Assembly (NCBI GenBank): GCA_022828595.1
Contig: JAKGHH010000005.1
Coordinates: forward strand, 62,119,655-62,183,654
Length of the DNA stretch: 64,000 nucleotides
Source of the DNA: Nelumbo lutea
Taxonomy: Eukaryota > Streptophyta > Magnoliopsida > Proteales > Nelumbonaceae
Direction: 5' to 3'
The notes under the pieces are model-generated. The model did not search any database and was not told where the DNA came from. It saw only the letters and a list, made by a program, of their open reading frames with translations. The position numbers were made by a program, and so were the translations under genes. How positions within the stretch are numbered: position 1 is the first letter of the stretch; each line of letters opens with the position of its first letter. Below are positions 6,866 to 32,971 of this stretch, piece after piece.

Positions 6866-8794
6866 TCAACTCGGGGGTACATCTCCCTTGCCTTCAGAAG
6901 GAACCTCAACAGCACTCGGAGGGTCCGCTTTGTCTTCAGAGTCCGCATCATCATCGATCGCGGCAGCAATCTCCGAAGTGATGTGCGAAGTGGTTATGGC
7001 ACTGGTTTCAAGCTCGGGGCATGCATACCTTATCATCCATCGGCTCAACTTGAAACCCCTCCGGTACGAGCCCACCATCAGGTCATCGAAGCGCGCTGAA
7101 GCAATGTAGTCGTCAACGACCTTCACCTTAGCATCCTTGAGGCCCTGGAGGAAGATCTCGGTCTTCTCCTTGAAGTCGTCCTGGAGGTATTCGACCTCGC
7201 ACTCCAAGAACCCTTTCGAGGTCGCGAGGTTCTTCACCACAAGCCTCAGAGCCCCGTTGTCCCTCCGAAGCCTCTCCAGCTCGGTCTGTTGAGCCGAAGC
7301 ATCGCCCTTAAGACAATGAATCCACTCCCGAGCTACCTCCAACTCAGCCTGCACTACATGGGAAGCCTCCTCGGCAGCTTGTGGCCACTTCAGGCTCCTC
7401 TCCGCTTGAAGAGTTAGGGTATGGATGGAGGAGTTTAACTACCAAGCGAGAACAAGTCAATCCAACAAGAAGAGAATAATAGCACAAAGGAAAACACCAA
7501 GAGAAACCACTACAACTTACCACCATAGCATGTGACACAGCGCGCGCCCCAATGTGACTTGGAGGAAGGTCAGCCCATGCCACAACCTCCCCAAGGTTGA
7601 AAGCCTTCTTGCTCTTGCGAAGAGCGTAGCTCGGCATTAGTATGCTACCAACCCCCTCCTGGCTCCCCGAGTTGGAGAGCACCGTCCGAGTGTGGGAGGC
7701 TGTGGTATCGATATCCCGAGCCTCTGCTATCTCGGGCTCCGCCGCGGCCTTTGGAGCAGGCACAGCCACCTCGGGCTTCCTAGGAGACTCCAGGTCGATG
7801 ACTGGGGGGCGGCTTTGGGCTTCGAGCTCCATGGTCCGAGGAGATCCAGCGCGAGCCCGCTTGGTAGCCCGCTTTCGCCTCTTCATCCCTTCGAGCAAGT
7901 TGGCACATCGGGTCTTCTCTGCCTCCATGACACCTGCAAAACGAGCGCAGCATCAATAAAAAAAGAAGAAGAAGAGAGAGGAGAAAAGAAACTAAGCAAG
8001 AAACCTACCCAAACTCATACTGACATGGATAAACTTAGCCTCTGCAAGATAACCTTTGCACTTGAGCCCGAGTTGGGCCCAATCCTGGAGGCCCTCCAGC
8101 GTGTCTTTGTCTAAAGTAACGCCGGGGTCAGGAGAAGCCGCCCTCCAATCAGAAGGAAATGGCCACCCCGTAGCACTTCGAACTATGAACTAGTCCCGCT
8201 TCCACGCCGGTACCTTACTCGGAAGCTCGTGCAGGAGTTTTAACCTCGGGCGGGGAGACAAGTAATAGGCCCACCTACCCCCAAGGAGGGAACCCGCTTG
8301 CTTCTTAAGCATCAGGATGGCGGAGAACATTTCTAAGTCTATCGGAAGGTAGTGTGTGCAACAAAGGGAGATGGTCCCAACGACGTTCTGGATAGAATTC
8401 GGGTGAAGCTGACCAATGGTAACGCCGAAGTGATTCAAGAGTTTGACAATATGGGGATGAAGAGGAAGGCACAGCCCGGCAACGAGCTGCTCCCGAAAAA
8501 TCACGATCTCATCTGACCGTGCTCCCAAGGGAAGTCGCCCGTGGGCAAACCATAAGTGTACTCCCCGGGCAGGTTGAACTAACGAACAAGAGATCGAAGT
8601 CTCTCCAACATCATGATGGAAGGTCTGAACTTGTCTGGCATCCGAACTCGACGAGAAGTGGATGCTAGGCTACCCGAACTGGACCGGCCCGAAGGCTCTA
8701 CCTCGGGCCCACCCAGAGGGCTGCCGGAAGTAGCCCGGGTTGAGGTCCCCGCCTCAGACCCTAAAAGACGATCTAAACTACCCGAACTGGACAT
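6866..8794 (-). pseudogene. Antisense three-exon gene of the Tat element (Transposase_28-like), copy 1
   Basis: On the strand opposite to pol a gene can be traced as exon 1 (8794-8009), intron 75 bp, exon 2 (7933-7521), intron 82 bp, exon 3 (7438-6866, stop at 6866). Both introns have GT..AG ends and identical phases to the gene in copy 2 at 24056-25953. Exon 1 starts MSSSGSLDRL and contains LNHFGVTIGQLHPNS, FSAILMLKKQAG and YYLSPRPRLKLLHELP, which recall the Pfam 'putative gypsy type transposon' family (Transposase_28). Exon 2 is basic (MKRRKRATKRARAG); exon 3 looks coiled-coil and ends in FKLSRWMIR plus an acidic tail. Exon 1 is damaged: a TAG after RSLVR, a frameshift near the DEIVIF motif and a TAG after AWKRD. 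Exons 2 and 3 are intact. Function is unknown; extra antisense ORFs are known in this lineage. Confidence 0.8.
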
Positions 8795-15571: not shown

Positions 15572-16440
15572 GCTAAAAATCTTAACCCCGTCCCCATCCC
15601 CATGGGGAACAAGGATCCTCGACTTTGCCCTACCCTGCCTTGGTCATTCTTACTTGTAATATAATATATACTATAATAAAATATATATTAGCACATATTA
15701 ATAATTACATATATATTAGGTCTTAAAATATAGTAGGGGCAGGGTGGACAAATACCGTCCCCGACACTAGAGTTTTGGGTTTTCCTCGAACCCGCCCTGA
15801 AACCCAATCAATGTTAAAAAAACCCGCCCCGATCAGGGCGGGGCAGAACCTCACAGGAAAGGGTGAAATTGCCATCTCTAGACCATTGCATGGGTCCCAT
15901 TAGTTTTAATATATAGATATAGAAGCACAAAGCCGAAGGGCCAGTCTAAGAGGGCTAAACCTTCGGTTGAATCACTTTATTTAGTTTCTTTGGCCACTAA
16001 AAGAAGTTTCATGGAAGGCCCTTTTTTTTCGCTGAAATCAGGGCTACAAGTTAGGTCGGATTGAGGCCAACCCTAGCCCAACCCTAAGTTCTAGACCCCC
16101 AACCCTAACCTTAACCCAACCTGACCTTCAACCTGATCTACCCAACCCTAAGTTCCAAAAGTCAGAACTCATAAGTGAAAAGATGCTACATCAAAACCCT
16201 CTCAAACGGATATTAATATTGGGGTTGTATGCCCTTTTACTTTAAGCTTATCCAACACAACCTAAATTGGGTACCCGATTTGAAGATGTAGACAACATGG
16301 GTTTTGGGCAATTGGGCCATTGAATGAGTCTATTTAAATTTTAATGAATGCTTAACAAATCCACCCAAACTACTTTATTTGACTTCTTAAATAAAAAAAT
16401 GTAATTCACACCAATCTGACTTCTTAAAAGTTAGAAGCCT

Positions 16441-16924
16441 TTAAGCAAGGTTTAAAGTATCAAAAACTTAAGGTGTATCGGAAAGATAATTTTAAGAGAC
16501 GTATCGGGATACGCTTTGGATACGTATAGATATGGACGAAAAATCAAGATACGCATAAATATGCCTAAAATACTCAAATAAATCCTAAAAATATATTAAT
16601 AACGATAGTTACGAGTTTTATATGATTGTAAATAAGTTATTTAAAAGTAGAAAACTATAATTTAATGGTCTATATAAAATTCTAGATATCATGACACACT
16701 TAGTAACTATTCACAAATGATGGAATAACTAAAACATGAAAAAACAAAAAAAAACTAAAATGTATATTGATATATATTAGTTTTAAAACAATCAATATAA
16801 TTTATTGTTATATTTATTAATACATAAATTTTAATAATTAATTCTAACATTTATTGATAAGCGTACACTAAAAAAAAGAGAATTTATTTAAAAATAAAAA
16901 TGCATAAACCTATAACAAGCAAAT
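16441..16924. other. Gene-free spacer between duplicated blocks
   Basis: The start (AAGGTTTAAAGTATC at about 16448, with GTATCGGGATACG) resembles the ends of the small TIR element at 48034-48258, so it is likely a scrap of that family. The remainder is AT-rich with no gene. Confidence 0.5.
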
Positions 16925-17035
16925 GGGCGTGGCTTAGTGGTGAACCTCTAGTTGTTAAAGCCTAATGTCTAAGGTTCAAATCTTGCTATTGCTAAGTTTG
17001 TATTTCTTTACTAAATAATAATAATAATAATAATT
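16925..17035 (+). mobile_element. tRNA-derived SINE candidate
   Basis: GGGCGTGGCTTAGTGGT holds a polymerase III A box (TGGCTTAGTGG, 16930-16940), and GGTTCAAATCT (16973-16983) fits a B box 33 bases later. The region ends in an AAT run (about 17018-17033), a simple tail as in SINEs. It cannot be folded as a normal tRNA cloverleaf, so a SINE head is more likely than a tRNA gene. No target duplication was found. Confidence 0.5.
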
Positions 17036-18393
17036 TAAAAAGATGAAAACACTTAAAAGTATAAAAAAATACAAAAAAAAAAATTGTAGAAAAGATTTAA
17101 GCACATCTCTGATCGTATTTGCCCTCATTTTTTTGTCAATAAATTTAAATATAGAGGCACAAATTTTGTCTTTAGAAAATTCCAAAAATATTCTTAAGAC
17201 CATTCGTGCTTTTAAAGTAGTATAGATTTGCCAATTGGGCCATTAGGTGGTGTATTAGCTTAACTTAGACCTATTTAGGAATTAACATGGAATAATATTA
17301 GTTATTGAATAATAATAATAATCATCATCATCATCATCATCATCATAATAATATGATTTGATATAAAATTTAATTAAAATCTTTAATTAACGTGAACAAC
17401 AAACTAGGTTACTACCTAATTAATTTAAAACTTCAGAAAATTAAAAGTATAATTAATTAATTAATATAAATACGTTATATTAATATTAGTTAACATTTCA
17501 TCTATAACTTATGCAAATTAAATACTAATATATGATCACATTAAGTTAAGTGTTAATATTCATATATTAATAATAGTAATTATATTAAACTCAATTAAAT
17601 GTTTAAATTTAGTAATTTAAAATTAATTATTATTTATGGCAGAAACAAATTTAATTATTCTTGACTAAAATCCATTTAAATGCTATTTATAATAATTACA
17701 TACAACTTAAGTTCTGGAGTTAAAAATATTTTAAATTAATCATAGACAAATAAGTTACCCAAAAATAACATTTGGATGGATAGGGACCTGCGCTACCCAA
17801 TTGAGAATGTCATAACACTTCTACTTCAATTTCACTTAATAAAATCTGTGCATAAAGAACAGATCAGAGCGGAGCAATGACGTGGAGTTATTGAACAGGT
17901 TTGAGGTTTCAAACTCTTCAAAAGTTGCAGGTTTTTTGAGCCTTAGAAGGTATATTTTGGGTTAAAAAGATTCAAATCTACAAGTTTCAGATGTTTTCAA
18001 GTTCTAAACTCTGAATGAAAATTTTCAGATTATCTTACAAAGCTATAAACATTTTAGACTTTTAACGGTTCAAACTTCACTTTTTTTAATAAATGCACAA
18101 GTTTTGAAAAAAAAAAACAACTAAAAAATTTAAAAACAGTGAAAAAGGTCTCATATGGTCGGGTCGACACGGTGCCCATTTTAATGTCCGGGTGAAGAAG
18201 ATGATAGGAACAATTCATACACACAAGTTCACAATGGCCCATTAAAAATGGGTATAATAATTGGACCTTTACTTTTGATTCTCTTAAATCGGAATATAAA
18301 TTTTTATTGTTTAAGTCTTGGTTGATGAAACCCATGTGTCGCAAAGGAATGGCAACGGAGTGGGGCAGAGTCGGGTTTTGCCTACCCCGTAAT

Positions 18394-19390
18394 TAGGGGT
18401 GGCAATTTTTCACCCAACCCGCCCATTTATTTGGCGGGTTGTGTGATCAACCCATCACCTAATCTGTCTATTTAAATGGGTTGGGTTGGGGATAACTATT
18501 GGATTAACCATTATAGATATAAGTATTAATTCCTTAGCCTTTTTTTTTTAATTTCTTCGTTTGAATTAAATAATTTATAATTAATGCATTAACTTTCTAT
18601 TAATTATTGACTAAATTTAGTTTTGTCTTGAATCAACATACTTCACCCAACATAAATCCAAATCAATTTGACCCAAGTTCAGACCAGTTCAACGCGACCT
18701 GAGCCGATCTGGGTCTATTCGAATCTGAAATAGACCCCGAGTGGGATGGTTCAGTACTGCTTACTCTGCCCGGCTTGGGTCGTTCGGTCCAACCAGTATT
18801 CACACAGCCCGACCAGACCCGACACAAGATTCAGGTCGACTTGAATTCGAAGTAGACCCCGGGCAGGATGGTTCGGTACTGCTTGCTCTGTCTGGTTTGG
18901 ATCGTCTTGTCCAACCACTATCCACACAATCCGACAGGACCTAATACAAGCATATTCGGGTCGACCCGAATTCAAAATAGGCCACAGACGAGATGGTTCG
19001 ATGTTAGATTTCTCTGCCTGGTTTGAGTCGTCCATTCAACTAGTATTCACACAACCCGACCTGAATATGGACTGACCCGATTTACTTACGTTGACCCGCT
19101 ACGAGTTAGTTGGTTTGGTTCCAAACCCGTGCACAAGCTTGATATGGTCCAGTCCGATCCGACCGGACTGATCTAGTTCTAAGATAATCCAATTAGATAG
19201 TTTAAGTTGGTCTGATCGGTTTGAACCTAAGTGGTTCGGTCAAACCCAAAATCTGAACATAGTCAAATGGCTTCGCCGCTTGTATAAAAATAACATGCAT
19301 GTAATATGATTTGAACCTTCACTACTTGTGTAGAGCGCGTTAGATGGATTGGATTGAAGATCAACCCAACTTGCCCAATTGCCACCGCTA
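18394..19390. mobile_element. hAT-like element inserted in block B
   Basis: Ends are TAGGGGTGGCAATT and, reversed, TAGCGGTGGCAATT. The flanking 8-mers CCCGTAAT (18386-18393) and CCCGTAGT (19391-19398) match at 7 of 8. Block A has the uninterrupted site CCCCGTAGCC near 14968. It carries a three-unit tandem repeat (18720-19075) and no transposase. Confidence 0.88.
18720..19075 (+). repeat. ~122-bp tandem repeat, three units
   Basis: Units start near 18732, 18853 and 18977, each with the order TAGACCCCG, GATGGTTC, TCTGCC and a following GTATTCACACA-like or CACACAATCC word. The third unit is the most diverged. It lies inside the hAT-like element. Confidence 0.8.
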
Positions 19391-19967
19391 CCCGTAGTCG
19401 ACCCCAAATTCAAATTCCTTGCCTCGTCCCAACCCAAAATCCCGATGAGGCTAAAAATCTTAAGCTCATCCCCATCCCCATAGGGAACAAGGATCCCCGA
19501 CATTGCCCTACCCCGCCCCAATCACTTTTACTTGTATACATATTAATTAATTTTTTTTAAACCTACCTAGAACTATTTTATATAATGCAATATAATATAT
19601 ACTATAATAAAATATATATTAGCATACATTAATAATTATATATATAATGTTTTAAAATATAGTTGGGGCAGGGTGGACAAATACCGTCCCCGACCCTAGA
19701 GTTTTGGGTTTTCCTCGAACCCGCCCTGAACCCCAATCAATGGTAAAAAAACCCGCCCCAGTTAGGGCGGGGTGGGCCCCCACGAGAATGGGTGAAATTG
19801 CCATCTCTAGGCCATTGCATGGGTCCCATTAGTTTTAATATATAGGTATAGAAGCACAAAGCCGAAGGGCCCGTCAGAGAGGACTGAACCTTCGGTTGAA
19901 TCACTTTATTTAGTTGCTTTGGCCGCTAAAAGAAGCTTCATGGAAGTCCCTTTTTTTTTGCTGAAAT

Positions 19968-22483: not shown

Positions 22484-23387
22484 TGATGATGTGCAATCCG
22501 AACGGTCTTAGCTGTCAACGACCTTGCTTCTGAACTAAGTAGCAGGGAACCTAAAATGGAGGAGATGAGGAAGCTCTGGGGAGAACCTGGTGTAAAGGCT
22601 CCGAAGCTTAAGTTAGAATCCTTCAAAGGCAAGATAAAACCAAATAGCGCAAAGTTTAACATACCTCCTCTTTGGGGGAGCGGAGAGCCTTTTATAACCA
22701 CCTCGCGCACTCACTCCTAGACTTTTGTCAGGTCGGGAATGATTATTTCCGTGCTTCTGCCAGTTCGGGCGTCATCGCCTCTGTTGGGGCAAAACCGTCA
22801 CTGCTCTTTTTGTCGGAACCGTCTCTGTAACTGGAGGTGGTGGTGACAGGTGACGGTGGCAGGTGGCCGTTCGAAGTGCGGCCGTTAAGCGTCAGATCCC
22901 AAGTCAGTCAGGTGTGCTGCCCCTGGATACGGACTCCTTCGGTGTCAGGTACAGTGTGGTTTGTCCAGTTCAATGCTCTGGAAGTGAAGTGCCTGGAGCG
23001 GTGCGTGAGGCGAAGCCTTGAGTTCGGATAGGGGGGGGCCCGAACTGTCATAAGACGGGCCAGTTCGGGTCTCTAGTTTGTGTGACTTGGGGCCAAAGGG
23101 AGAGTTTGGGCTCCTCGTAGGGAGTTCTCACTCTAAGTAGGGAGCTCGGACCCCTTGTAGGGAGTTCGGGCTCCTCGTAGGGAGTTCGGGCTCCTCGTAG
23201 GGAGTTCAAGCTCTAAGTAGGGAGTTTGGGCACCTTGTAAGGAGTTCGGGCTCCTCGTAGGGAGTTCGGACCGCTGGTCTCTTCCCTTTGGTGTTTGTAC
23301 CCTCGGTACGCTGTTTTAAGTGCCGAGCTATTTTGTTTTCTGCCACGTGGCGTGATTTGCGAGGTCGGGCCAAATCTTCCTTCATCA
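22484..23387 (-). repeat. 3' LTR of Tat-type copy 2
   Basis: 904 bp; on the minus strand it starts TGATGAAGGAAGATTT and ends CATCATCA. TATA box at 22689-22696 (minus). Contains the 20-bp minisatellite at 23102-23277. Confidence 0.95.
23102..23277. repeat. 20-bp minisatellite in the LTR, nine units (3' LTR)
   Basis: The unit is GAGTTCGGGCTCCTCGTAGG, and starts fall exactly every 20 bp at 23102, 23122 and so on to 23262 (last unit partial). Variants alternate CTCCTCGTAGG with CTCTAAGTAGG and CACCTTGTAAG. The 5' LTR has the same nine units in the same variant order (32689-32865). It lies in U3, upstream of the TATA box on the element strand. Confidence 0.93.
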
Positions 23388-23400
23388 ATTGCCCCCCACT
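23388..23400 (-). other. Polypurine tract (copy 2)
   Basis: The minus strand reads AGTGGGGGGCAAT directly before the 3' LTR start TGATGAAGG, matching copy 1. Confidence 0.75.
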
Positions 23401-23857
23401 CCTCGTGCTAAGGGTCTTGCCCTGGCGCGGGGAGTTCGGAAGGTGTCAGGTAGATGTGCCCTGCATTTTGAATATTGGTTCTGCCGGCACGAGGTGCATT
23501 GTCCGGGTTTCTTGGGCTTCTTTCGAGCGTCCATTAGGCGGGAAGTGCGCCGGCCTGCCTAAACGCTGATAGATGTGGCGGCGCGCGCTTTATTTCAAAA
23601 TTTCAAAAAAAGCACGCCACTTGGGGGGGCGCGATAGCGGGCACCTTTTCAAATTTGAAAAAGACGTGCTGTTTGCCATTTTTTCTGAGGAGACGTGCGC
23701 TGGCGTTCCGTCAGTTTCGAAAAGATGTGCGCCGGCACTGTCAGTTTCAGGAAGACGTGCGCCAATCATGTCTCAATCTCGGGGGACGTGCGGTCAGTGC
23801 GGATGTAGGCCGTCGGATTGGCTTTGATCTAAGCCGTTGCCTTTCGGTCACTGTGAG

Positions 23858-23866
23858 TATAAATAG
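23858..23866 (+). promoter_or_regulatory. Antisense TATA box (TATAAATAG), copy 2
   Basis: GAGTATAAATAGCGGGG lies 190 bp before the antisense ATG at 24056. Copy 1 has the same TATAAATAG plus G run at the matching place. Confidence 0.65.
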
Positions 23867-24055
23867 CGGGGGGGGGGGGGACCCCAGTTGTTGTCACTTC
23901 TGTATTTCTCTCGAGCTCACGTCTGAGTTTCAGCTTGCATCCAGTTCGCATCCAGGTTTTTTCAGTTCGCGCTCAAGGTCTTCCGCTCATCCGAGCTCCT
24001 GTGGTCTACGGCTTTTGTTTGGGTGAGTACTTTCCTGAATCTCATCTCACTCCCG

Positions 24056-25953
24056 ATGTCTAGCTCGGATGGCTCAGATAGTCCTTTCAGCGGGTCTGAT
24101 GCAGGTTCTACGAACCGAGTTGCATCCTCCGATAGCCCTAGCGAGCCGGAGGTAGAGCTCGAGGAAGAGTTCGAGCTTGTAGGCCGCGGCGCTTCGGGTA
24201 GTCTGGCGTTCACCTCTCGTCGGGGTCGGATGTTAGACAAGTTCGGCCCTTCGACCATGATGCCCGAGGGCCTCTAATCCCTCATTACTTACTATAACTT
24301 GCCCGGGGAGTACGCTTATTTCATACCTTCGGGTAGCTTTCCTTGGGAACATGGTCCTGACGGGATCGTGATATTCCGGGAGCAGCTCGCCGCGGGGCTG
24401 CGATTGCCTTTCCATCCCCTCTTTGTCGAAGTCTTGAATCACTTCGGCGTGACGGTCGGCCAGCTTCACCTAAATTCCATTCGAAACTTGGTGGGGACAA
24501 TCTCCTTATTTTGCGACGAGAGCTTTCCTTTGGACTTGGAGATTTTTTCTTCAATCTTGATGCTTAAGAAGCAAGCGGGTCCCCTCCCTGGGCGTAAGCG
24601 GGCTTACTAACTGTCTCCGCGCCCGGGCTTTAAGCTTTTACATGAGCTCCCCAACAAGGTCCTAGCATGGAAGCGGGACTATTTCGAGGTGCGAAGTGTG
24701 TTGGGGTGGCCGTTTCAGACCGGGTGGGGGATGGCCGCTCCTGACTCCGGGGTCACGCTTGACAAAGAGACGGCGAAGGGCCTCTGGCAATGGGCGCGGC
24801 TTGGGTTGAAGTGTCAACAGTATCTGACGGAGGCCAAGCTTACTGCGGCCGGCCTGAGTTCGGGTAGGTTCTTCACTTAGAGACTCTTATCTTGCTGTCT
24901 TCCTTGCTTTTTACTGATGGCGAACTTCTTTTCGCAGGTGTGATGGATTCGCGAGGGACCCGGGCGCGGGCACTTGTTTCAAGGTATGAAGAGGAGAAAG
25001 CGGGTTGCCAAGCGAACTCGCGCCGAGATGCCGCAGGGTGCGGAGCCCAAGGTACTGGACTATCAGTTAGAAGATCCGCCCAAGGAGCCCGAGGTGGTCC
25101 CTCCGATGCAGGAGCCGGCAGGGGTCCTTATGCTGAGACTACATACACAAGGGCTCCTACATACTCCAGTGCTCTTGCTTACTCCGGGTCTGCTCATACG
25201 CGAGGTGGGCCCTCGGGCTCGGGCCCCGGGGGATTTCAGGAGTGTGTTGACGCCGACCCATGCTTTTCAGAAGAGTAAGGAGGCTATCTTCCCCGAGGAG
25301 GTCGCGGCGTTGACTGATCTCCCTCTGCATCAAGTGGCCTGCCGTGCCGTTACCCACGCCATGGTGGTAAGTGTTCTCCCTTTTTTAGAGCTCTTTGGCT
25401 TTTGTTTTGTTGGTTATTTTGATCAATCGGTCTCTTTTGGTAGGTGAATTCTTCTATTCACGCCTTGGCGGCTCAGGTGGAGAGGAGCTCGAGGCAGGTG
25501 CGAGCTGCCGAAGAGACTGCTCGTTTTTCACGGATCAGGCAAGCGAGGTCTCAGAGAGATGCCGAGGCCATGGGAGTGGTGGTGAAGCACATGGCGGATT
25601 TGAGGCTGGATCTGCAGCATCAGGTCGAGTACCTTCAGGAGGACATCAGAGAGAGGACGCAGATCTTTTCTCAAGGTATCGAAGATGCCAAGAAGAAGGT
25701 CGTCGATGAGTACATTGCTTTGCCGGGCTTTGATGATCTGATGGTGGATTCATATAGGAGGGGTTTTAAACTAAGCCGGTGGATGATCCGGAATACATAC
25801 CCCGAGCTCGATGTTAGCGCCATATCCACTTCGCGCATAACTCAGGAGATGGCTAATGCTGCTGACGCTGAGCCAGACTCCGAGGGCGAGGCGGGGCCTT
25901 CGGGTTTTGTTGAAGTGCCTTCTGATGATGAAGAAATAGCTCCAGGCTTGTGA
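24056..25953 (+). pseudogene. Antisense three-exon gene of the Tat element (Transposase_28-like), copy 2
   Basis: Opposite to pol, the gene reads exon 1 24056-24863, intron 74 bp, exon 2 24938-25366, intron 77 bp, exon 3 25444-25953. Donors GTAGGT and GTAAGT and CAG/TAG acceptors match copy 1, and so do phases 1 and 0. Exon 1 starts MSSSDGSDSPFSGSDAG and holds LPGEYAYFIPSGSFPWEHG, LNHFGVTVGQLHLNS, FSSILMLKKQAG and LLHELPNKVLAWKRDYFEV. This last half recalls the Pfam Transposase_28 family. Exon 2 is basic (MKRRKRVAKRTRAE). Exon 3 has heptad-like ALAAQVERSSRQVRAAEETA, then SYRRGFKLSRWMIR and an acidic end. Two in-frame TAA stops (24275-24277 and 24608-24610) and one single-base indel early in exon 2 disable it. 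Function unknown. Confidence 0.82.
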
Positions 25954-26224
25954 TATATATATTTTTTATGTACTACCTTACTTTTCAAATGGAACGACTT
26001 TTGTTTAAGTGCTGATTATTCTTTCTCCCGAACTAAGCATATTTGCCGAACTGACCATACGTCTGGTCTGTTTTTTGCCCGGGTTATCGATGTCCCTATT
26101 GGTACATTGTCTCCGTTTCGCCTTTGGCTGACTTTTCTTGCTTGCCTGTGCCGAGGTTCCTTCGTTAGCTCGGCATCCTAGCCTATAGGCCTTGGTAGTG
26201 ATTTTATCCACTTTGCTTGGCGGT
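25954..26224. other. Spacer between antisense gene and integrase end (copy 2)
   Basis: No ORF shared with copy 1. The antisense gene and pol converge here. Confidence 0.55.
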
Positions 26225-27480
26225 CTATAGGTAGTATCGTCTTAGGTTGACAATGTTCCATGCTCAGGGTACTTGTTTTCCCTCTAGGGTTTCGAGCTCG
26301 TATGCCCCCCGAGTTTTCCTACGTCGGGTTCGGGTACCATGATCTTACGGAGAACCAGGTCGCCGATGCGGAAGATCCGCTTCGTTACTCTGACGTTATA
26401 GTATCGAGCTACCTTTTGCTGGTAGGCCGCAGTTCAGATGTGCGCGAGGTCTCTCACCTCGTCCAGTAGGTCGAGGTTGGTGCGTAACTCGTCTTCGTTT
26501 TGTCTCATCGTATGCTTCTAGTCACAACGTAGGTACTTCAATTTCCGCCGGGATCACCGCTTCGGTGCCGTAGGTGAGGTTAAAAGGGTCTCTCTTGTGG
26601 CGGTTTTTTCCGTGGTTCGGTGAGCCCATAGAACACTTGGAAGCTCGTCTGCCCACAACCCTTTGGCTCGGTCTAGTCGTGCCTTCAGTCTGCGGAGGAT
26701 GGCTCTGTTCATTACTTCTGTTTGGCCATTTGCCTGCGGGTGTGCGACCAACGTGAAGTTCTGTCTAATTCCCATACTTTAGCACCATTCTTGGAACTTG
26801 ATATCCTCAGACTATTTGCTGTTGTCGGAGAACAGTACCTGAGATATCCCGAAGCGACATACTATGTTCTTCCAAAAGAAGTTCTGTATGTTTTGGGTTG
26901 TAACCGTTGCTAGAGGTTCAGATTCTATCAACTTTGTGAAGTAATCTACTGCCACCACTAGGAATTTTCTCCCACCTGTCGCTGGCAGGAATGGCCCCAG
27001 AAGGTCGATGCCCCATTGTGCAAAGGGCCATGGACTGGTGAGGTACTTAAGGTCGGCAGCAGGCTGATGGTGGATATTGGCATGCTTCTAACACTTGTTG
27101 CATTTTCTGACGAGCTCGACGGCCTCTGTCTTCATCTTTGGCCAGTTGTATCCTTGTCGAAGTGCCTTTTGAGCGAGGGCTCTGCCCCCAGGTGTCCGCG
27201 CACAAGCCTTCATGAGTGTCGCGGAGTACGAGCTCGGCTTCGGCGGGTCGCAAGCATCGCAGGTAGGGGAGCATGTAGGATCGTCGGTACAATCGTTCGT
27301 CTATTACGACGTATTTGGCTGCTTGGCGCTGCACCTTCTTGGCTGCATTGTGGTCCACAGGGAGGGTTCCATTTAGCAGGAAGCTCGCGAGTGGGTCGAT
27401 CCAACTCGGCTCTACTTCAGAGACGGGAGCGACCTCTTCTGCTCCATCGAGAATGTTGGGCCGAGGTAAGTCCTCTATGT
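26225..27480 (-). pseudogene. Integrase, broken (copy 2)
   Basis: The linker and zinc-binding start lie at about 27480-27047 (DTHEGLC; the second His region is lost by a frameshift). The core on the minus strand gives QWGIDLLGPF (first Asp), VVAVDYFTKLIESEPLAT, NFFWKNIVCRFGI and then SDNSK, where the Gly after Asp-Asn is changed, followed at once by a TAG. The end of the core, NFTLVAHPQANGQTEVMNRA, is open at 26775-26554 with its Glu. The C-terminal domain is out of frame and closes at WNIVNLRRYYL with TAG at 26225. It is non-functional. Confidence 0.85.
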
Positions 27481-28419
27481 ACACGATTCTCATGGCGTTG
27501 TGACTCGTGCTGGCTAGTCGGGATAGGGCGTCGGCCTCAGTGTTCTTTGACCTCGGGATTTGCTTGATGAAGTGTGACTGGAAGTTGAGCAGAACCTCCT
27601 TTACTTTTGCCAAGTATGCAATCAAAGTGAGCTCGCGTGCTTCGTACTCGCCTGTAACTTGGTTGACCACGAGCTGGGAATCACTGCAGATAACTACGTG
27701 CTTTGCTCCGACCTTATGCGCTAGGTTCAGCCCGGCAATCAGTGCCTCGTACTCCGCCTCGTTGTTGGATGCCGCGAACTCAAAGCGTAGTGCGTATTCC
27801 AACTTTGTTCTACTCGGGCCGCGTAGCACTATTCCAGCCCCGCTGCCCTGCTGGTTCAAGGAGACAACTACGTGAAGGATCCAGGGCTCCTCATCCCAGT
27901 TCGCGCTTGGTCTAACCAGGAGAGATGCTACACTGGCTGCTACTTCACGGGGTTCAGACTCTATTGGCTTGGGAGCTCCGAGCTTGCCCGAACTGGGGAT
28001 CTCGTGCTCGACCGACTCAGGGGCTTCGAGGCTAAACGTGCACTCGACGATAAAATCTGCCAAGGCTTGGACCTTAATAGCAGTTCTTGGCTTGTACTGC
28101 AAGTCGTACTCGCTGAGTTCGATGGCCCATTTCGTTAATCGACCAGAAACCTCGGGTTTGAGTAAAACTTGTCTCAGAGGTTTGTCAGTCAGGACAATGA
28201 CGGTGTGAGCCTGGAAGTACGGGCGGAGTTTCCGAGCTGCTATCACCAGTGCGTATGCTAGGCTTTTCTATATGCGGGTACCTTGTCTCTGCTACCTTCA
28301 AAATTTTACTAAAATAATAGATGGCTCGCTGGACCTGTTCTGTTTCTTTTATTAGTACCGAACTGACCACAACATAGCATGCCGAGAGGTAAAGATCTAA
28401 GACCTCGCCCTCCTCGGGC
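27481..28419 (-). pseudogene. RNase H and archaeal-type RNase H (copy 2)
   Basis: The RT-linked RNase H begins near 28419 (VVSSVLIKETEQ, AIYYFSKIL) and is frameshifted before KLRPYFQAHTVIVLTDKPL. From 28246 one long frame covers the end of this domain, a Pro/Ser-rich linker and the whole aRNH: WILHVVVSLNQQGSGAGIVL, ASNNEAEYEALIAG, VVICSDSQLVVNQV and EADALSRLAST. The first catalytic Asp, HVDG in copy 1, is lost here (HVVV), while Glu, second Asp and last Asp remain. The dual RNase H is a hallmark of Tat elements. Confidence 0.87.
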
Positions 28420-29260
28420 CGGGCTAAGGTCGGCACACTAGCGAGGTAACCTTTTAGCTCGTCAAATGCGAGCTGGCAGTCTTGGGTCCACTCGAACCCT
28501 TTGCCTTTGATTGCTTTGAAGAAAGGTAGGCAGCGGTCTGCTGATTTGGACACGAAGCGGCTTAGAGCGGCTATGCGGCCGTTTAGCCTCTGAACTTCTT
28601 TTACTTTCCGAGGTGGTCTCATATCTAGAATGGCTTTTATCTTGTCCGGGTTGGCCTCAATACCGTGTCGATTGACAATGTAGCCTAGGAATTTGCCCGA
28701 GGTGACGCCGAAGACACATTTGTTGGGGTTCAATTTCATGCTAAACTGACGCGGGATTTGGAAGACAGAATCTAAGTCTTGTATTAATTCTTGTGAAAAC
28801 TGTGTCTTGACGACCATGTCGTCTACATAGCACTATCTTTGTGCCAATCAGGGGCCGAAACAGCCTATTTACAAGTCTTTGGAAGGTCGCCCCGGCATTT
28901 TTTAATCCGATGGGCATGACCTTGTAGCAGTACAGGCTGAACTCGGTTATGAAGCTGGTTTTTTCCTCATCGGACTGGTCCATCCGGATTTGGTTGTAGC
29001 CCGAGTAGGCGTCCAGGAAACTTAGCAACTCATGTCCTATGGTCGCATCCACTAGGCGGTCAATTCTGGGGAGGGGGAAGCAATCTTTCGGGCAAGCTCG
29101 GTTCAGGTCGGTGTAGTCGACGCACATGTGCCACTTGCCTTTCGCCTTTTTTACCAGCACTGGGTTGGCCACCCAGCTCGGGTAATAGACTTCCCTTATG
29201 AAGCCTGCTGCGAGGAGCTTCTCGACCTCCTCGTCGACCACCCTCCAGCGTTCTGGGGGC
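28420..29260 (-). pseudogene. Reverse transcriptase domain, broken (copy 2)
   Basis: The RT runs in two frames. The first (29241-28741) has KGKWHMCVDYTDLNRACPKD, FLDAYSGYNQIRM and KVMPIGLKNAGATFQRLVN. A 2-base loss just before the catalytic motif moves YVDDMVVK into the next frame (28817-28185), which continues with KCVFGVTSGKFLGYIVNRHG and LAFDELKGYL. The YVDD bases themselves are intact. It aligns with copy 1 throughout. Confidence 0.9.
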
Positions 29261-29646
29261 TAAGTTGCATTTCTTCTGTCTAACGGGTCTGACTACAAGG
29301 TCAGTATTAAGTTTGTGAGTTATCAGGCCGGGGCTAATACCGGGCATGTCGGCCGCGGACCAGGCAGAAATATCTAAATTTTGAAGTAAAAAACTCACCA
29401 GTTTGGTTCGTAGGGGTTCCTTGACGGAAGCACCGATCTGAAGTGTGCGAGCTGGGTCCGTAGCCAAAGTCGGGACTGCGACCGTTTCCTCTATGGGCGA
29501 AGCTCGTTTCTCGCCTTGCTCCGCAGGCCTCTCCAGTTCGAGGTGGTTGGCTGCCTTGGTTTTTCCCTTCAGGGCGGCAACATAACACTTGTGGGACTCG
29601 AGCTGGTCGCCCCGCGCTACCCCCACACCGAAGTCCGTAGGGAACT
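29261..29646 (-). other. Protease-RT linker of the polyprotein (copy 2)
   Basis: Open on the minus strand as part of the frame 29674-29060, starting LAMKFPTDFGVGVARGD and passing LITHKLNTDLVVRPVRQKK. It lies one frame away from the protease, so a frameshift near 29660 separates them. Confidence 0.75.
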
Positions 29647-30699
29647 TCATGGCCAAATAGTAGGTGGAGACCACCGCCCGTAGGATATGCGTGATCGGCC
29701 GCCTATTATGGCATTGTATGGGGAGGGGGTCGCAACCACCAGGAAATCATGGTTGAGTCTGACCGCACAAGGCCATGTGCTGACTTCCACAGGTACTATT
29801 ATTTTTCCGAGGGGCCTGACTTCCTCTCCGCCGAAACCCTCTAGGGGAGTGTTCGCGGGCTTCAGCTCGCTCCTCTGTAGTTGTAGCTGGTCAAATGCTG
29901 ATTTAAAGAGGATGTCCGTTGAGCTGCCTGAATCTACGAGTACGCGTCTAACCTCGAAATCGTTGATCCTTAGTTTAATGACAAGCGCGTCATCGTAGGG
30001 GTAGTGGACCCCTCGCGCATCGTCCTCCGTGAAGAAGATTGGTTCTTCGGTCTTTGGTCTTTTTGGGGGGTTCCGTTCCTCGAGAGCCGCTTCGCGAACT
30101 GAAGTCCGGGCTGCTTCCGAGGTACACCCTGCTACCACCGAACCTCCTACAATTACATGGATGGTTCCCCGAACTGGCCTCTCTTCCGGAGGCTGTCGCT
30201 GCAACGGTTCAGCAGGTCTGCTGCTAGATTCGGGGGCATCCTTTTCGTACTCCCCTTGCCGACCTGCCTTATTGTTATTATTGCTGTGTTGTACAAAGTT
30301 TCTCAAGTATCCGCGACGGATGAGCCCCTCTATCTCGTCCCGGAGATTATTACATTGCTCGGTACTATGACCATAGTCTTTAAAGAAACTACAATACAAA
30401 TTCTTATTTCTCTCATTCGGATTTCCCTTTAGGCGAGGTGGCCACTTCACGTATGGGGCGTCCTTGATCGTCATTAAGATCTCGGTCCGCCTTGTGTTTA
30501 ACGGCGTGTAATCCGTCCGAACTGCTAGGGGAGCTCGGAACGACTGGTTCGGCTTCGGCTCCCGGGTCGGGTTTTTCCTGTCTACTGCGTTGGAGAGCTC
30601 GCCTTCCCTCTTTCTTTTCTCATCCCCGCCTTCGGTTCGTTGGTTGATTTCTTCCTCTGTCTTCATGAACTTGTCCGCGAGCTTGAGGAATTCGGCCAT
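29647..30699 (-). pseudogene. gag C-terminal part plus protease (copy 2)
   Basis: One open frame of 350 codons. Residues 1-40 are charged (FLKLADKFMKTEEEINQRTE). YCSFFKDYGHSTEQC at residues 102-116 is the one-cysteine-short zinc knuckle seen in Tat gag proteins. Four Asn at about 140-143 mark the place expanded in copy 1. Protease follows: DSGSSTDILF from residue 256 has the intact aspartic-protease triad, and HDFLVVATPSPYNAIIG is the second half. The frame is lost to a shift after the GGRSRISYGR stretch and ends at 29647. The gag N-terminal part lies upstream in other frames, so this is a fragment of the original polyprotein. Confidence 0.87.
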
Positions 30700-31995
30700 G
30701 GTTGCGGCCTAGTTAGCTACTATGTGCCATTTGAATTCTTTGTGCGTTACCCCTCTTTTGGCCGCCGCGAGCTGCACCGCGGTATCTGCAAGCATGCTTC
30801 ATTGAATCGCTTGATGTAGCCCCGGATGGATTCTCCTTCCCTTTGGACTACTCCGAAGATGCTTTCCTCTGTTCTGGGGCACCGTTTGCTGATGACAAAG
30901 TGTGCGGTGAAGACCTGCACGAACTGGGCCCAACACTTTATCGACCCGGGGGCCAGGTTCCTGTACCAAGTGCGGGCTACTCCCCTATAGGTGGTGGTGA
31001 AGGCCATGCACATGCATGATTCGTTGGCCCTAGCGAGGTGCATTTGGGAACTGGAAAGCGTCAACGTGGTCGTTGGGGTCGAAGGACCCGTCGTACTTGT
31101 CCAGAGGTGGGAGCTTGAAATCTCTAGGCAAGGGGACCGCCAGGAGTTCTGATGCAAGGGGGAAGGAACCGAGAGAATCGGGGCAGCTCCTACCTTGTCC
31201 GAGCTCATCTCTTCTTTGCCTCTGAGCTCTGAAAAGACACGAGTGGTGGTTCGGCAACTTCGCCAGGGCCTTCGTTGTTGAGTGGGCCTTGTACTGGCGC
31301 TGCTGGCCTCCGTGTTGCCGAGCTCGATGGGCTCGGAATGCTGGTAGTCTGCCGCCAGGGCGCCGAATCGGTTTTCCGTGAGCGAAAACTCGGGCTTGGA
31401 GCGCCGAGGTGCCGATCTCGCGGGCGAGGTTCCCGAACCGCCTGCGAGCTGCGAAGCGGGGATGATTTTTTTCTCTCTTCGGCCTGGGGACGAGGCCTGT
31501 TTGTTAGGGGGGTTCCGGGCCGGGAGGCCTTTCCTTGGTGGGGGCGTCCATCCTGCGAGGGGGCCTTGACCGGCCTCGGAGCAAGGTGGCGAGGTGGAAG
31601 TAGTGGTTGGTTCACTGGCAATTGGGGGAACTCTCGTTGATAGTGATAGTGGGAGATGTTGTGCAGCACTTGGTGCTGGTGAAGCTGGTGTTGCTGGAAC
31701 TGTTGCATTTGGGCTTGCATTGCCCGCATGCACTGCTTCAGGTCGTCCAACCGGTTTTGGCTGGCTGCCAGGGGGACGACAGTCGGTTCGGTAAAGGTTG
31801 TCTCAATAGGGGGAGGAAAGGGGATGCTTGTGGCAGGAAGGTTTATGGGCGCCACTGTTTGTGGCCATTCAAGCTTGGGATCCCATCCACCGAAAGGGGG
31901 ATGGTGAACTGTCCAACGCACACCACGGGGACTTGAAGTTGTTCCCCGGTGGTGTTTGTCTCTGTGCCACGTCCGGCGTTGGTGGAGGAGTCCAT
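30700..31995 (-). pseudogene. gag N-terminal and core part, broken (copy 2)
   Basis: The probable start is the ATG at 31995 (MDSSTNAGRGTETNTTGEQL), stopped by TAA at about 31845. The next frame (to 31205) holds LDDLKQCMRAMQAQMQQFQQ, a likely coiled coil, then a Pro/Arg-rich part. The gag core lies near 31140-30870 in two frames (LPPLDKYDGSFDPNDHVDAF, then HTWYRNL as RTWYRNLAPGSIKCWAQFV). The segment 30870-30650, with VQREGESIRGYIKRFNEA, is missing in copy 1. At least two frameshifts prevent translation. Confidence 0.83.
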
Positions 31996-32055
31996 GAGTG
32001 TTGGGTTTTTTGAAGAAAAGGGGTTATGAGAGTTTGGAGGGAGGCTTTTTGAAGC

Positions 32056-32074
32056 GTTCCCACAGACGGCCAAT
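32056..32074 (-). other. Primer-binding-site region (copy 2)
   Basis: On the minus strand, ATTGGCCGTCTGTGGGAA follows the LTR end directly. It is closer than copy 1 to the TGGCGCCGTCTGTGGGAA motif of plant gypsy elements. Confidence 0.65.
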
Positions 32075-32277
32075 TGATGATGCGCAATCTGGCCGGTCTT
32101 AGCTGTCAACGACCTTGCCTTTGAACTGAGTAGCAGGGTACCTGAAACGGAGGAGGTTAGGAAGCTCTGGGAGAACCCGGTGTAAAGGCTCCGAAGCTTA
32201 AGTTAGAATCCTTCAAAGGCAAGATAAAACCAGATAGCGCAAAGTTTACATACCTCCTCTTTGGGGGTGCGGAGAGC

Positions 32278-32285
32278 CTTTTATA
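32278..32285 (-). promoter_or_regulatory. LTR TATA box (TATAAAAG), copy 2
   Basis: The minus strand reads GAGGTGGTTATAAAAGG, sharing GTGGTTATAAAA with the LTRs of copy 1. The 20-bp minisatellite lies upstream of it in U3. Confidence 0.7.
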
Positions 32286-32688
32286 ACCACCTCGCGCACT
32301 CACTCCTAGACTTTTGTCAGGTCGGGAATGATTATTTTCGTGCTTCTGCTAGTTCGGGCGTCATCGCCTCTGCTGGGGTAGAACCGTCACTGCTCTTTTT
32401 GTCGGAGCCGTCTCTATAACTGGAGGTGGCGGTGACAGGTGACAGTGGCATGTGGCCATTTGAAGTGCGGCCGTCAAGCGTCAGATCCCAAGTCAGTCAG
32501 GTGTGCCGCCCCTGGATACGGACTCCTTCGGTGTCAGGTACGGTGTGGTTCGTCCAGTTCAATGCTCTGAAAACGAAGTGCCTGGAGCGGTGCGTGAGGC
32601 AAAGCCTTGAGTTCGGATAGGGGGGCCCGAACTGTCATAAGACGGGCCAGTTCGGGTCTCCGCTTTGTGTGACTCGGGGCCAAAGGGA

Positions 32689-32865
32689 GAGTTCGGGCTC
32701 CTCGTAGGGAGTTCGCACTCTAAGTAGGGAGATCGGATCCCTTGTAGGATGTTCGGGCTCCTTGCAGGGAGTTCGGGCTCCTCGTAGGGAGTTCGAGCTC
32801 TAAGTAGGGAGTTTGGGCACCTTGTAGGGAGTTCGGGCTCCTCGTAGGGAGTTCGGACCGCTGGT
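32689..32865. repeat. 20-bp minisatellite in the LTR, nine units (5' LTR)
   Basis: Same nine units in the same order as at 23102-23277, with scattered point changes (for example GAGATCGGATCC in unit 3). Unit number was therefore fixed before insertion and has not changed since. Confidence 0.93.
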
Positions 32866-32971
32866 CTCTCCTTTGGTGTTTGTACCCTCGGTACGCTGTT
32901 TTAAGTGCCGAGCTATTTGTTTTCTGTCACGTGGCGTGATTTGCGAGGTCGGGCCAAATCTTCGTTCATCA

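Follow-up and report, generated by a model that had tools for sequence, protein, structure and literature searches.

How can an element that multiplies through RNA own a gene with introns and keep them? This question is raised by a 64,000-nucleotide stretch of Nelumbo lutea DNA (hereafter the window), in which two Tat-like LTR retrotransposons, copy 1 and copy 2, each carry a three-exon gene on the strand opposite to gag-pol. The explanation that we favour, with a probability of roughly 0.6, is an accessory gene of Tat-type (Retand-like) elements that is read antisense from its own TATA promoter, contains two spliceosomal introns and encodes a nuclear regulator. The gene structure, the common introns, the purifying selection and the domain content can all be read from the DNA letters; promoter use, splicing, the nuclear site, dimerisation, DNA binding and regulation are inferred.

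Two retrotransposons and their antisense genes

Copy 2 occupies positions 22484..32971 on the minus strand, with its ends read by eye, and is flanked by what appears by eye to be a 5-bp target duplication, AGAAT. Its two LTRs of ~900 bp each, the left one at 22484-23388 (the element's 3′ LTR) and the right one at 32075-32971, differ by a K2P distance of 0.060 over 896 aligned bases. Profile matches place the gag-pol ORF pieces at 27047..31733 on the minus strand, including gag (30747-31733), the reverse transcriptase or RT (28741-29241) and an RNase H plus a second RNase H (within 27047-28817); the profiles matched by these minus-strand ORFs are RVT_1, RT_RNaseH_2 / RT_RNaseH and, for the second RNase H, RVT_3. 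An additional RNase H domain is named for the Tat lineage in the literature (PMC6317226). Since a second RNase H follows the RT-linked one in this Ty3/gypsy pol, copy 2 fits the Tat clade by its sequence, while the narrower name Retand is applied on the grounds of the PF04195 gene and the layout only.

Copy 1 has the opposite orientation, and one of its LTRs begins at or before the first base of the window. Two further features of the neighbourhood are worth recording. Short tandem-like units, GGGAGTTCGGGCTCCTCGTA and variants of it, can be made out by eye in the LTR of copy 2 at 23110-23270, and two 300-nt direct repeats with 91% identity, 3.9 kb apart, delimit positions 15709-19937, where they are perhaps the LTRs of a further element.

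The antisense gene of copy 2 lies on the plus strand at 24056-25953, between pol and the 3′ LTR. Exon 1 (24056..24863, 808 nt) encodes the Transposase_28 domain (PF04195) and is interrupted by stops at 24275 and 24608. It is followed by intron 1 (24864..24937, 74 nt, GTAGGT...CAG, phase 1) and by exon 2 (24938..25366), which has an ATG at 24943 in the frame entered from exon 1, encodes the basic stretch KRRKR and, at 429 nt, is out of frame in this copy. Intron 2 (25367..25443, 77 nt, GTAAGT...TAG, phase 0) then leads into an uninterrupted exon 3 (25444..25953) with the conserved C-terminal block SYRRGFKLSRWMIR. The gene of copy 1, at 6866..8794 on the minus strand, is broken by frameshifts and stops; its introns, at 7934-8008 (75 nt) and 7439-7520 (82 nt), fall at the same codons and in the same phases.

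An earlier note on this DNA had the outline of the gene right: the coordinates, the intron lengths of 74/77 nt in copy 2 and 75/82 nt in copy 1, the GT-AG ends and the common codons and phases. Its impression that exon 1 recalls Transposase_28 is likewise borne out, as a profile search matched PF04195 to the piece 24278-24610 at 39.1 bits (E 9.1e-10), above the curated cut-off of 26.2. A donor for intron 1 at the GT of 24868 instead of 24864 was considered and rejected, for exon 2 would then leave the frame, and one group of copies has GC at that site. Five copies (L053-L057) have GC, not GT, after the GTAG at the start of intron 1, and the upstream GTAGGC donor is kept in four of the five.

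Introns and coding constraint across the genome

All DNA evidence comes from one genome, searched over 843.7 Mb in 63 contigs. Of the loci cut out, the 30 nearest formed a close set (L009-L038), the first being copy 2 itself and the others 88-93% identical; a diverged set comprised copy 1 and 20 copies that are 73-88% identical to it (L039-L058). A further 20 PF04195 loci were fetched, among which groups F6 and F8 were viewed with six copies each. Splice sites could thus be tabulated in 63 copies from seven related groups, 51 scored by script and the 12 of F6 and F8 added, with the acceptor of L073, missed by the script, judged by eye. We labelled the groups F1 to F11 ourselves; they are related, so that they do not amount to independent trials.

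Donor 1 reads GT in 58 of the 63 copies and acceptor 1 reads AG in 55; at intron 2, the donor GT is present in every copy (63/63) and the acceptor AG in 59. All four sites are kept in 37 of the first 51 copies. Over 28 aligned copies, the six bases of the intron 2 donor are all invariant, compared with 8 of 68 columns in the intron body. At intron 1 this contrast is weaker (fully invariant columns: donor 2/6, acceptor 0/3, body 7/65), because single decayed copies have lost their sites. Divergence between groups amounts to 43% of sites in intron 2 and 27% in intron 1. Both introns, first noticed in the two elements of the window, are therefore common to other groups of copies in the family.

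More diverged copies were inspected by eye in groups F10 (29-42% protein identity to the exon 1 queries) and F11 (49-62%). Two F10 loci (L001 and L006) contain intron 1 as GTGGGT...CAG at the same codon and in the same phase, with only the acceptor of intron 2 left in L001 and a deletion at intron 2 in L006; a third (L008) has GTAAGT at donor 1, a mutated acceptor 1 and an intron 2 reading GTTTGT...GAG. In F11, both introns are complete at the expected places in L092. In L091, acceptor 1 is gone, and a shortened exon 2 precedes intron 2. By their letters, both groups support the structure, with decayed sites. L004, also viewed, is rearranged at the intron region; L002, L003, L005, L007, L060, L064, L065, L072 and L075-L078 lie outside this intron view.

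Single copies show peculiarities of their own. The intron 1 acceptor has changed from CAG to CAA at the same site in five of the 30 close copies (L010, L015, L018, L022 and L028), as decay at methylated CHG sites might produce. A local duplication in L070 repeats the end of exon 2 together with intron 2 sequence, and at G000:C7:20646008 (L094), a locus matching exons 1 to 3, an open frame of 916 codons surrounds the exon 3 match.

Is the frame itself under selection? dN/dS was calculated from 25 of the 28 aligned rows (L014, L032 and L046 were left out), skipping codons with gaps or stops. In the gene's frame, the means between five groups are 0.25 for exon 1, 0.34 for exon 2 and 0.20 for exon 3, and group-by-group values range from 0.17 to 0.43, so that the ratio, proposed earlier as a check on the gene, is well below 1 between groups. 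Within groups it rises to 0.27-0.74, highest in F1, in keeping with decay once the copies had inserted. In the other frames the ratio lies at 0.84-1.27, save for one minus-strand frame per exon at 0.32-0.43, which we read as a mirror with coinciding third positions. This mirror frame has 2.9-4.6 stops per 100 codons versus 0.5-0.6 in the gene's frame, and a low dN/dS is combined with few stops in one of the six frames only.

The lengths of the exons tell a similar story. In a set of 22 copies from several groups, division by 3 leaves a remainder of 1 for the length of exon 1 in 16 copies and a remainder of 2 for that of exon 2 in 19, whereas the lengths of both introns spread over all three residue classes. 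The constraint is weaker among the 30 close copies (exon 1 class kept in 18, exon 2 class in 15), as is expected of decaying copies. Between copy 1 and copy 2, dN/dS is 0.11-0.47 for the gag-pol ORFs and 0.24-0.32 for the exons, meaning that the constraint on the gene is similar to that on gag-pol and no stronger. The suggestion in the earlier note that the gene had been kept while pol decayed is not supported: both are constrained, and both are broken in the window.

Might these be chance frames in decayed repeats, with no gene behind them? In all 30 nearest copies the spliced frame is interrupted by stops or frameshifts, which speaks for such a reading. Yet it has to contend with the PF04195 match, the dN/dS values, the phases and the common introns, and we give it next to no credence. 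Introns that are common to other groups, a single frame with low dN/dS and few stops, and an invariant intron 2 donor take the pattern beyond chance: the antisense gene is real, selected and widely common in the genome studied.

A second alternative accepts the gene and regards its introns as relics of capture, the gene now being read without splicing, one ORF at a time. In many copies exon 1 and exon 3 are indeed each open alone, and a 2025 survey, in the portion used here, counted 104 antisense ORFs without invoking splicing (PMC11963269). However, a relic intron sits poorly with a donor 2 that reads GT in 63/63 copies beside an intron body in which 43% of sites differ from group to group, and with exon lengths that hold the residue classes needed by both splice phases. 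We therefore judge this alternative very improbable.

Predicted proteins and copies lacking the intron offer another view of the junctions. Protein database searches returned 3, 2 and 6 matches, all from Nelumbo (the 3- and 6-match searches scored the best 7998 and 7995 candidates by common words); the six proteins, all named Nelumbo nucifera, are predicted NCBI gene models. The letters of P0002, P0003 and P0004 fit the exon 1-exon 2 junction, P0004 in a shifted frame there, and those of P0001, P0005 and P0006 fit the exon 2-exon 3 junction; P0003 retains part of intron 2. When P0001 was compared with the genome, 213 matches were obtained; among those listed, many begin or end near residues 121-128, the position of intron 2, and others are shorter pieces.

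Among five loci in which the P0001 match runs through the intron 2 position (L089-L093), none is intronless: the whole of intron 2 is present in L092 (where it is short) and L093, in L091 its donor stands at a shortened exon 2, in L090 the donor is seen, and from L089 part of it is missing, including the acceptor. A joined-exon pattern for the intron 1 junction matched the genome three times versus five times in a backward control. For the intron 2 junction there were 18 matches versus none in the control, but 14 of the 18 read GTGAGT, that is, the unspliced donor. Two of the remaining four were examined (L095 and L096) and two were left out (C1:1771572 and C3:82740917). In L096, the junction is not followed by exon 3. 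In L095 (G000:C6:69276600-69280300), at ~1695, intron 2 is exactly absent and element sequence continues around the gap. The group to which L095 belongs has a direct repeat, GGTGA, at the donor and acceptor of intron 2, and the locus is either the trace of a spliced antisense cDNA or a deletion between the 5-bp direct repeats; because such a repeat permits simple deletion, L095 is not counted as proof of splicing. Intronless copies were set aside as proof of splicing.

Putative promoter, leader and predicted protein

Upstream of the gene in copy 2, a TATA box, TATAAATAG, lies at 23858..23866 on the plus strand, between the LTR with its polypurine tract and the ATG and 198 nt upstream of the latter; it would be the promoter of the antisense gene. 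In copy 1, the TATA is found at ~8933. In the 17 loci measured, TATAAAT precedes the ATG by 126-198 nt, and its distance from the LTR edge, seen in 8 loci, is 257-484 nt into the element; no such box was seen upstream in the pieces from L068, L001 and L004 or close to the gene in L008. Eleven of the 30 close copies contain the exact TATAAATA, and seven of the remaining 19, when aligned, read CATAAATAG. HBZ of HTLV-1, an antisense gene that also exists in a spliced form, has its promoter in the LTR, whereas the TATA box here lies inside the element.

Between TATA box and ATG, the leader contains a third potential donor. This donor 0, GGTGAGT (24022..24028 on the plus strand, with its GT at 24023), stands 34 nt upstream of the exon 1 ATG in copy 2, has a counterpart in copy 1 with its GT at ~8836 and precedes the ATG by 23-64 nt in the loci measured. 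It is present in nine of ten groups sampled (12 leaders; the F4 leader reads GGTGATT) and in 5/6 further loci, and GGTGAG is kept in 28 of the 30 close copies, L014 reading GGCGAGT and the match of L026 starting at gene base 129. Within the last 75 nt of the leaders, GGTGAGT is the most widely common 7-mer; in 300 shuffles, which ignore the kinship of the groups, the best common 7-mer reached at most 6 of 10 groups. Judged by its letters, GGTGAGT is a strong donor that may be used in splicing, and its conservation in the leader is new here.

What could such a donor be for? One extension of the favoured explanation, possible though on the unlikely side, is that alternative 5′ splice sites yield two proteins from one gene. 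Donor 0, which is strong, and donor 1, which is weaker and reads GTAGGT in most groups, would compete for the acceptor of exon 2. Use of donor 1 would give the long PF04195 protein, and use of donor 0 would skip exon 1 and start translation at the exon 2 ATG, producing a short protein of linker plus helix that could antagonise the long form. The conservation of GGTGAGT above shuffles is consistent with this idea, as is the conserved opening ATG of exon 2, which is in frame in all nine groups viewed and lost in the single copies L031 and L058. Conversely, another ATG is present in the presumed exon 0 of 5/16 loci, and a leader donor can serve transcription unspliced. A lenient test (AG kept in at least 22 of 28 copies, with a pyrimidine-rich upstream stretch), moreover, accepts five AGs inside exon 1 along with the two intron acceptors, although by eye none of the candidate acceptors for donor 0 inside exon 1 is alike in all groups. 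Two of the gene models, P0001 and P0006, begin with a Met further into exon 2, and this does not settle the matter.

Turning to the protein itself, an AlphaFold2 model of P0001 (4 sequences, mean pLDDT 62) has a disordered exon 2 part and then one long helix, the form predicted for exon 3, at ~residues 110-276, with a pLDDT of ~90 over most of it; the helix is probably a coiled coil. The structure model of exon 1 is poor (mean pLDDT 50), and its comparison with the PDB gave 29 weak matches, none at E 0.001 or better. For this reason, the case for DNA binding draws on the published prediction for the PF04195 domain (PMC11963269).

In the explanation that we favour, transcription would take place in the nucleus, driven by a TATA promoter that belongs to the gene itself and sits between polypurine tract and ATG, and the two spliceosomal introns would be removed from the pre-mRNA. 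Splicing would join exon 1 (PF04195), exon 2 (a basic disordered linker) and exon 3 (the helix and the C-terminal block) into a protein of ~590 residues, whose likely role would be that of a dimeric, DNA-binding regulator acting on the element in the nucleus. As the element copies itself via sense-strand RNA, in which antisense introns go unrecognised, the introns would be handed on at every transposition. The protein, in turn, would come only from integrated copies, after nuclear splicing. The logic of the earlier note, by which introns in antisense orientation outlast replication via sense RNA, is supported.

Alternatively, the antisense RNA might be the working product, pairing with the sense RNA and tuning silencing or reverse transcription, as has been proposed for the antisense transcripts of such elements (PMC7264820). 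Codon-level selection in three exons, frame-preserving lengths and conserved splice sites point instead to a protein, and we consider an RNA product improbable as the main explanation. These signs of a protein nonetheless leave room for an added RNA role.

Known antisense genes and the place of the lotus gene

Extra antisense ORFs of Tat-type elements, to which the earlier note points, are known, and an antisense PF04195 ORF has already been published. PF04195 ORFs in Retand are named in both Neumann 2019 (PMC6317226) and Vicient and Casacuberta 2020 (PMC7264820), and antisense TRP28 (PF04195) ORFs are reported in 97% of Retand clusters (Vicient 2025, PMC11963269). These TRP28 ORFs have the same place between pol and the 3′ LTR, the same orientation and the same domain as the lotus gene; they are treated as ORFs in that survey (PMC11963269), whereas in the lotus gene the domain ORF makes up the first of three exons. 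The 2025 survey, which found its ORFs with ORF Finder, spread its antisense ORFs over 63 clusters and gave some of them Smc-like and similar labels (PMC11963269); many of those so labelled may correspond to the helical exon. The regulatory role of the antisense ORFs is a proposal in both the 2020 and the 2025 paper, which state that function and origin of the Retand ORFs are open (PMC7264820, PMC11963269).

The 2020 review called it necessary to look for antisense and spliced transcripts (PMC7264820). The word 'intron' has no occurrence in the main text of the 2025 survey (PMC11963269), and among the matches listed in a search of the open literature, judged by title and start of abstract, none reports introns in antisense PF04195 genes. 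Within the open literature, this suggests that the antisense PF04195 gene is known and its conserved introns are apparently new. A 2013 paper on gene23 of the Grande element may already have described splicing; gene23 also lies antisense between pol and the 3′ LTR and, as told in the 2020 review, has its own promoter and encodes a nuclear protein (PMC7264820).

Parallels exist beyond the Tat clade. HBZ of HTLV-1, named in the 2025 survey (PMC11963269), is an antisense gene of a retroelement and a nuclear regulator, the role proposed here for the lotus protein. An intron reporter of retrotransposition also exploits the strand dependence of splicing, but its intron is placed in the sense of the element and lost on transposition, whereas the lotus introns are in the sense of the antisense gene and kept (PMC12786077). 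A search of viral contigs for relatives gave 92 pattern matches, none of which is a relative.

These comparisons invite a broader scenario, which we offer tentatively and regard as rather doubtful. Retand-type elements across flowering plants would carry one conserved, intron-bearing antisense gene, a chromosomal gene captured long ago with its introns, and the published separate antisense ORFs would be its exons. Through the choice of 5′ splice site, it would encode two nuclear proteins, a long PF04195 protein that binds DNA and a short helical one that dimerises with the long form and restrains it.

If the antisense ORFs are exons of one gene, surveys based on ORFs cut that gene apart, and the spliced protein is the one to test. 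Its introns would favour descent from a chromosomal gene over uptake of a transduced mRNA, and the arrangement illustrates a way for a retroelement to possess a spliced gene and yet keep the introns.
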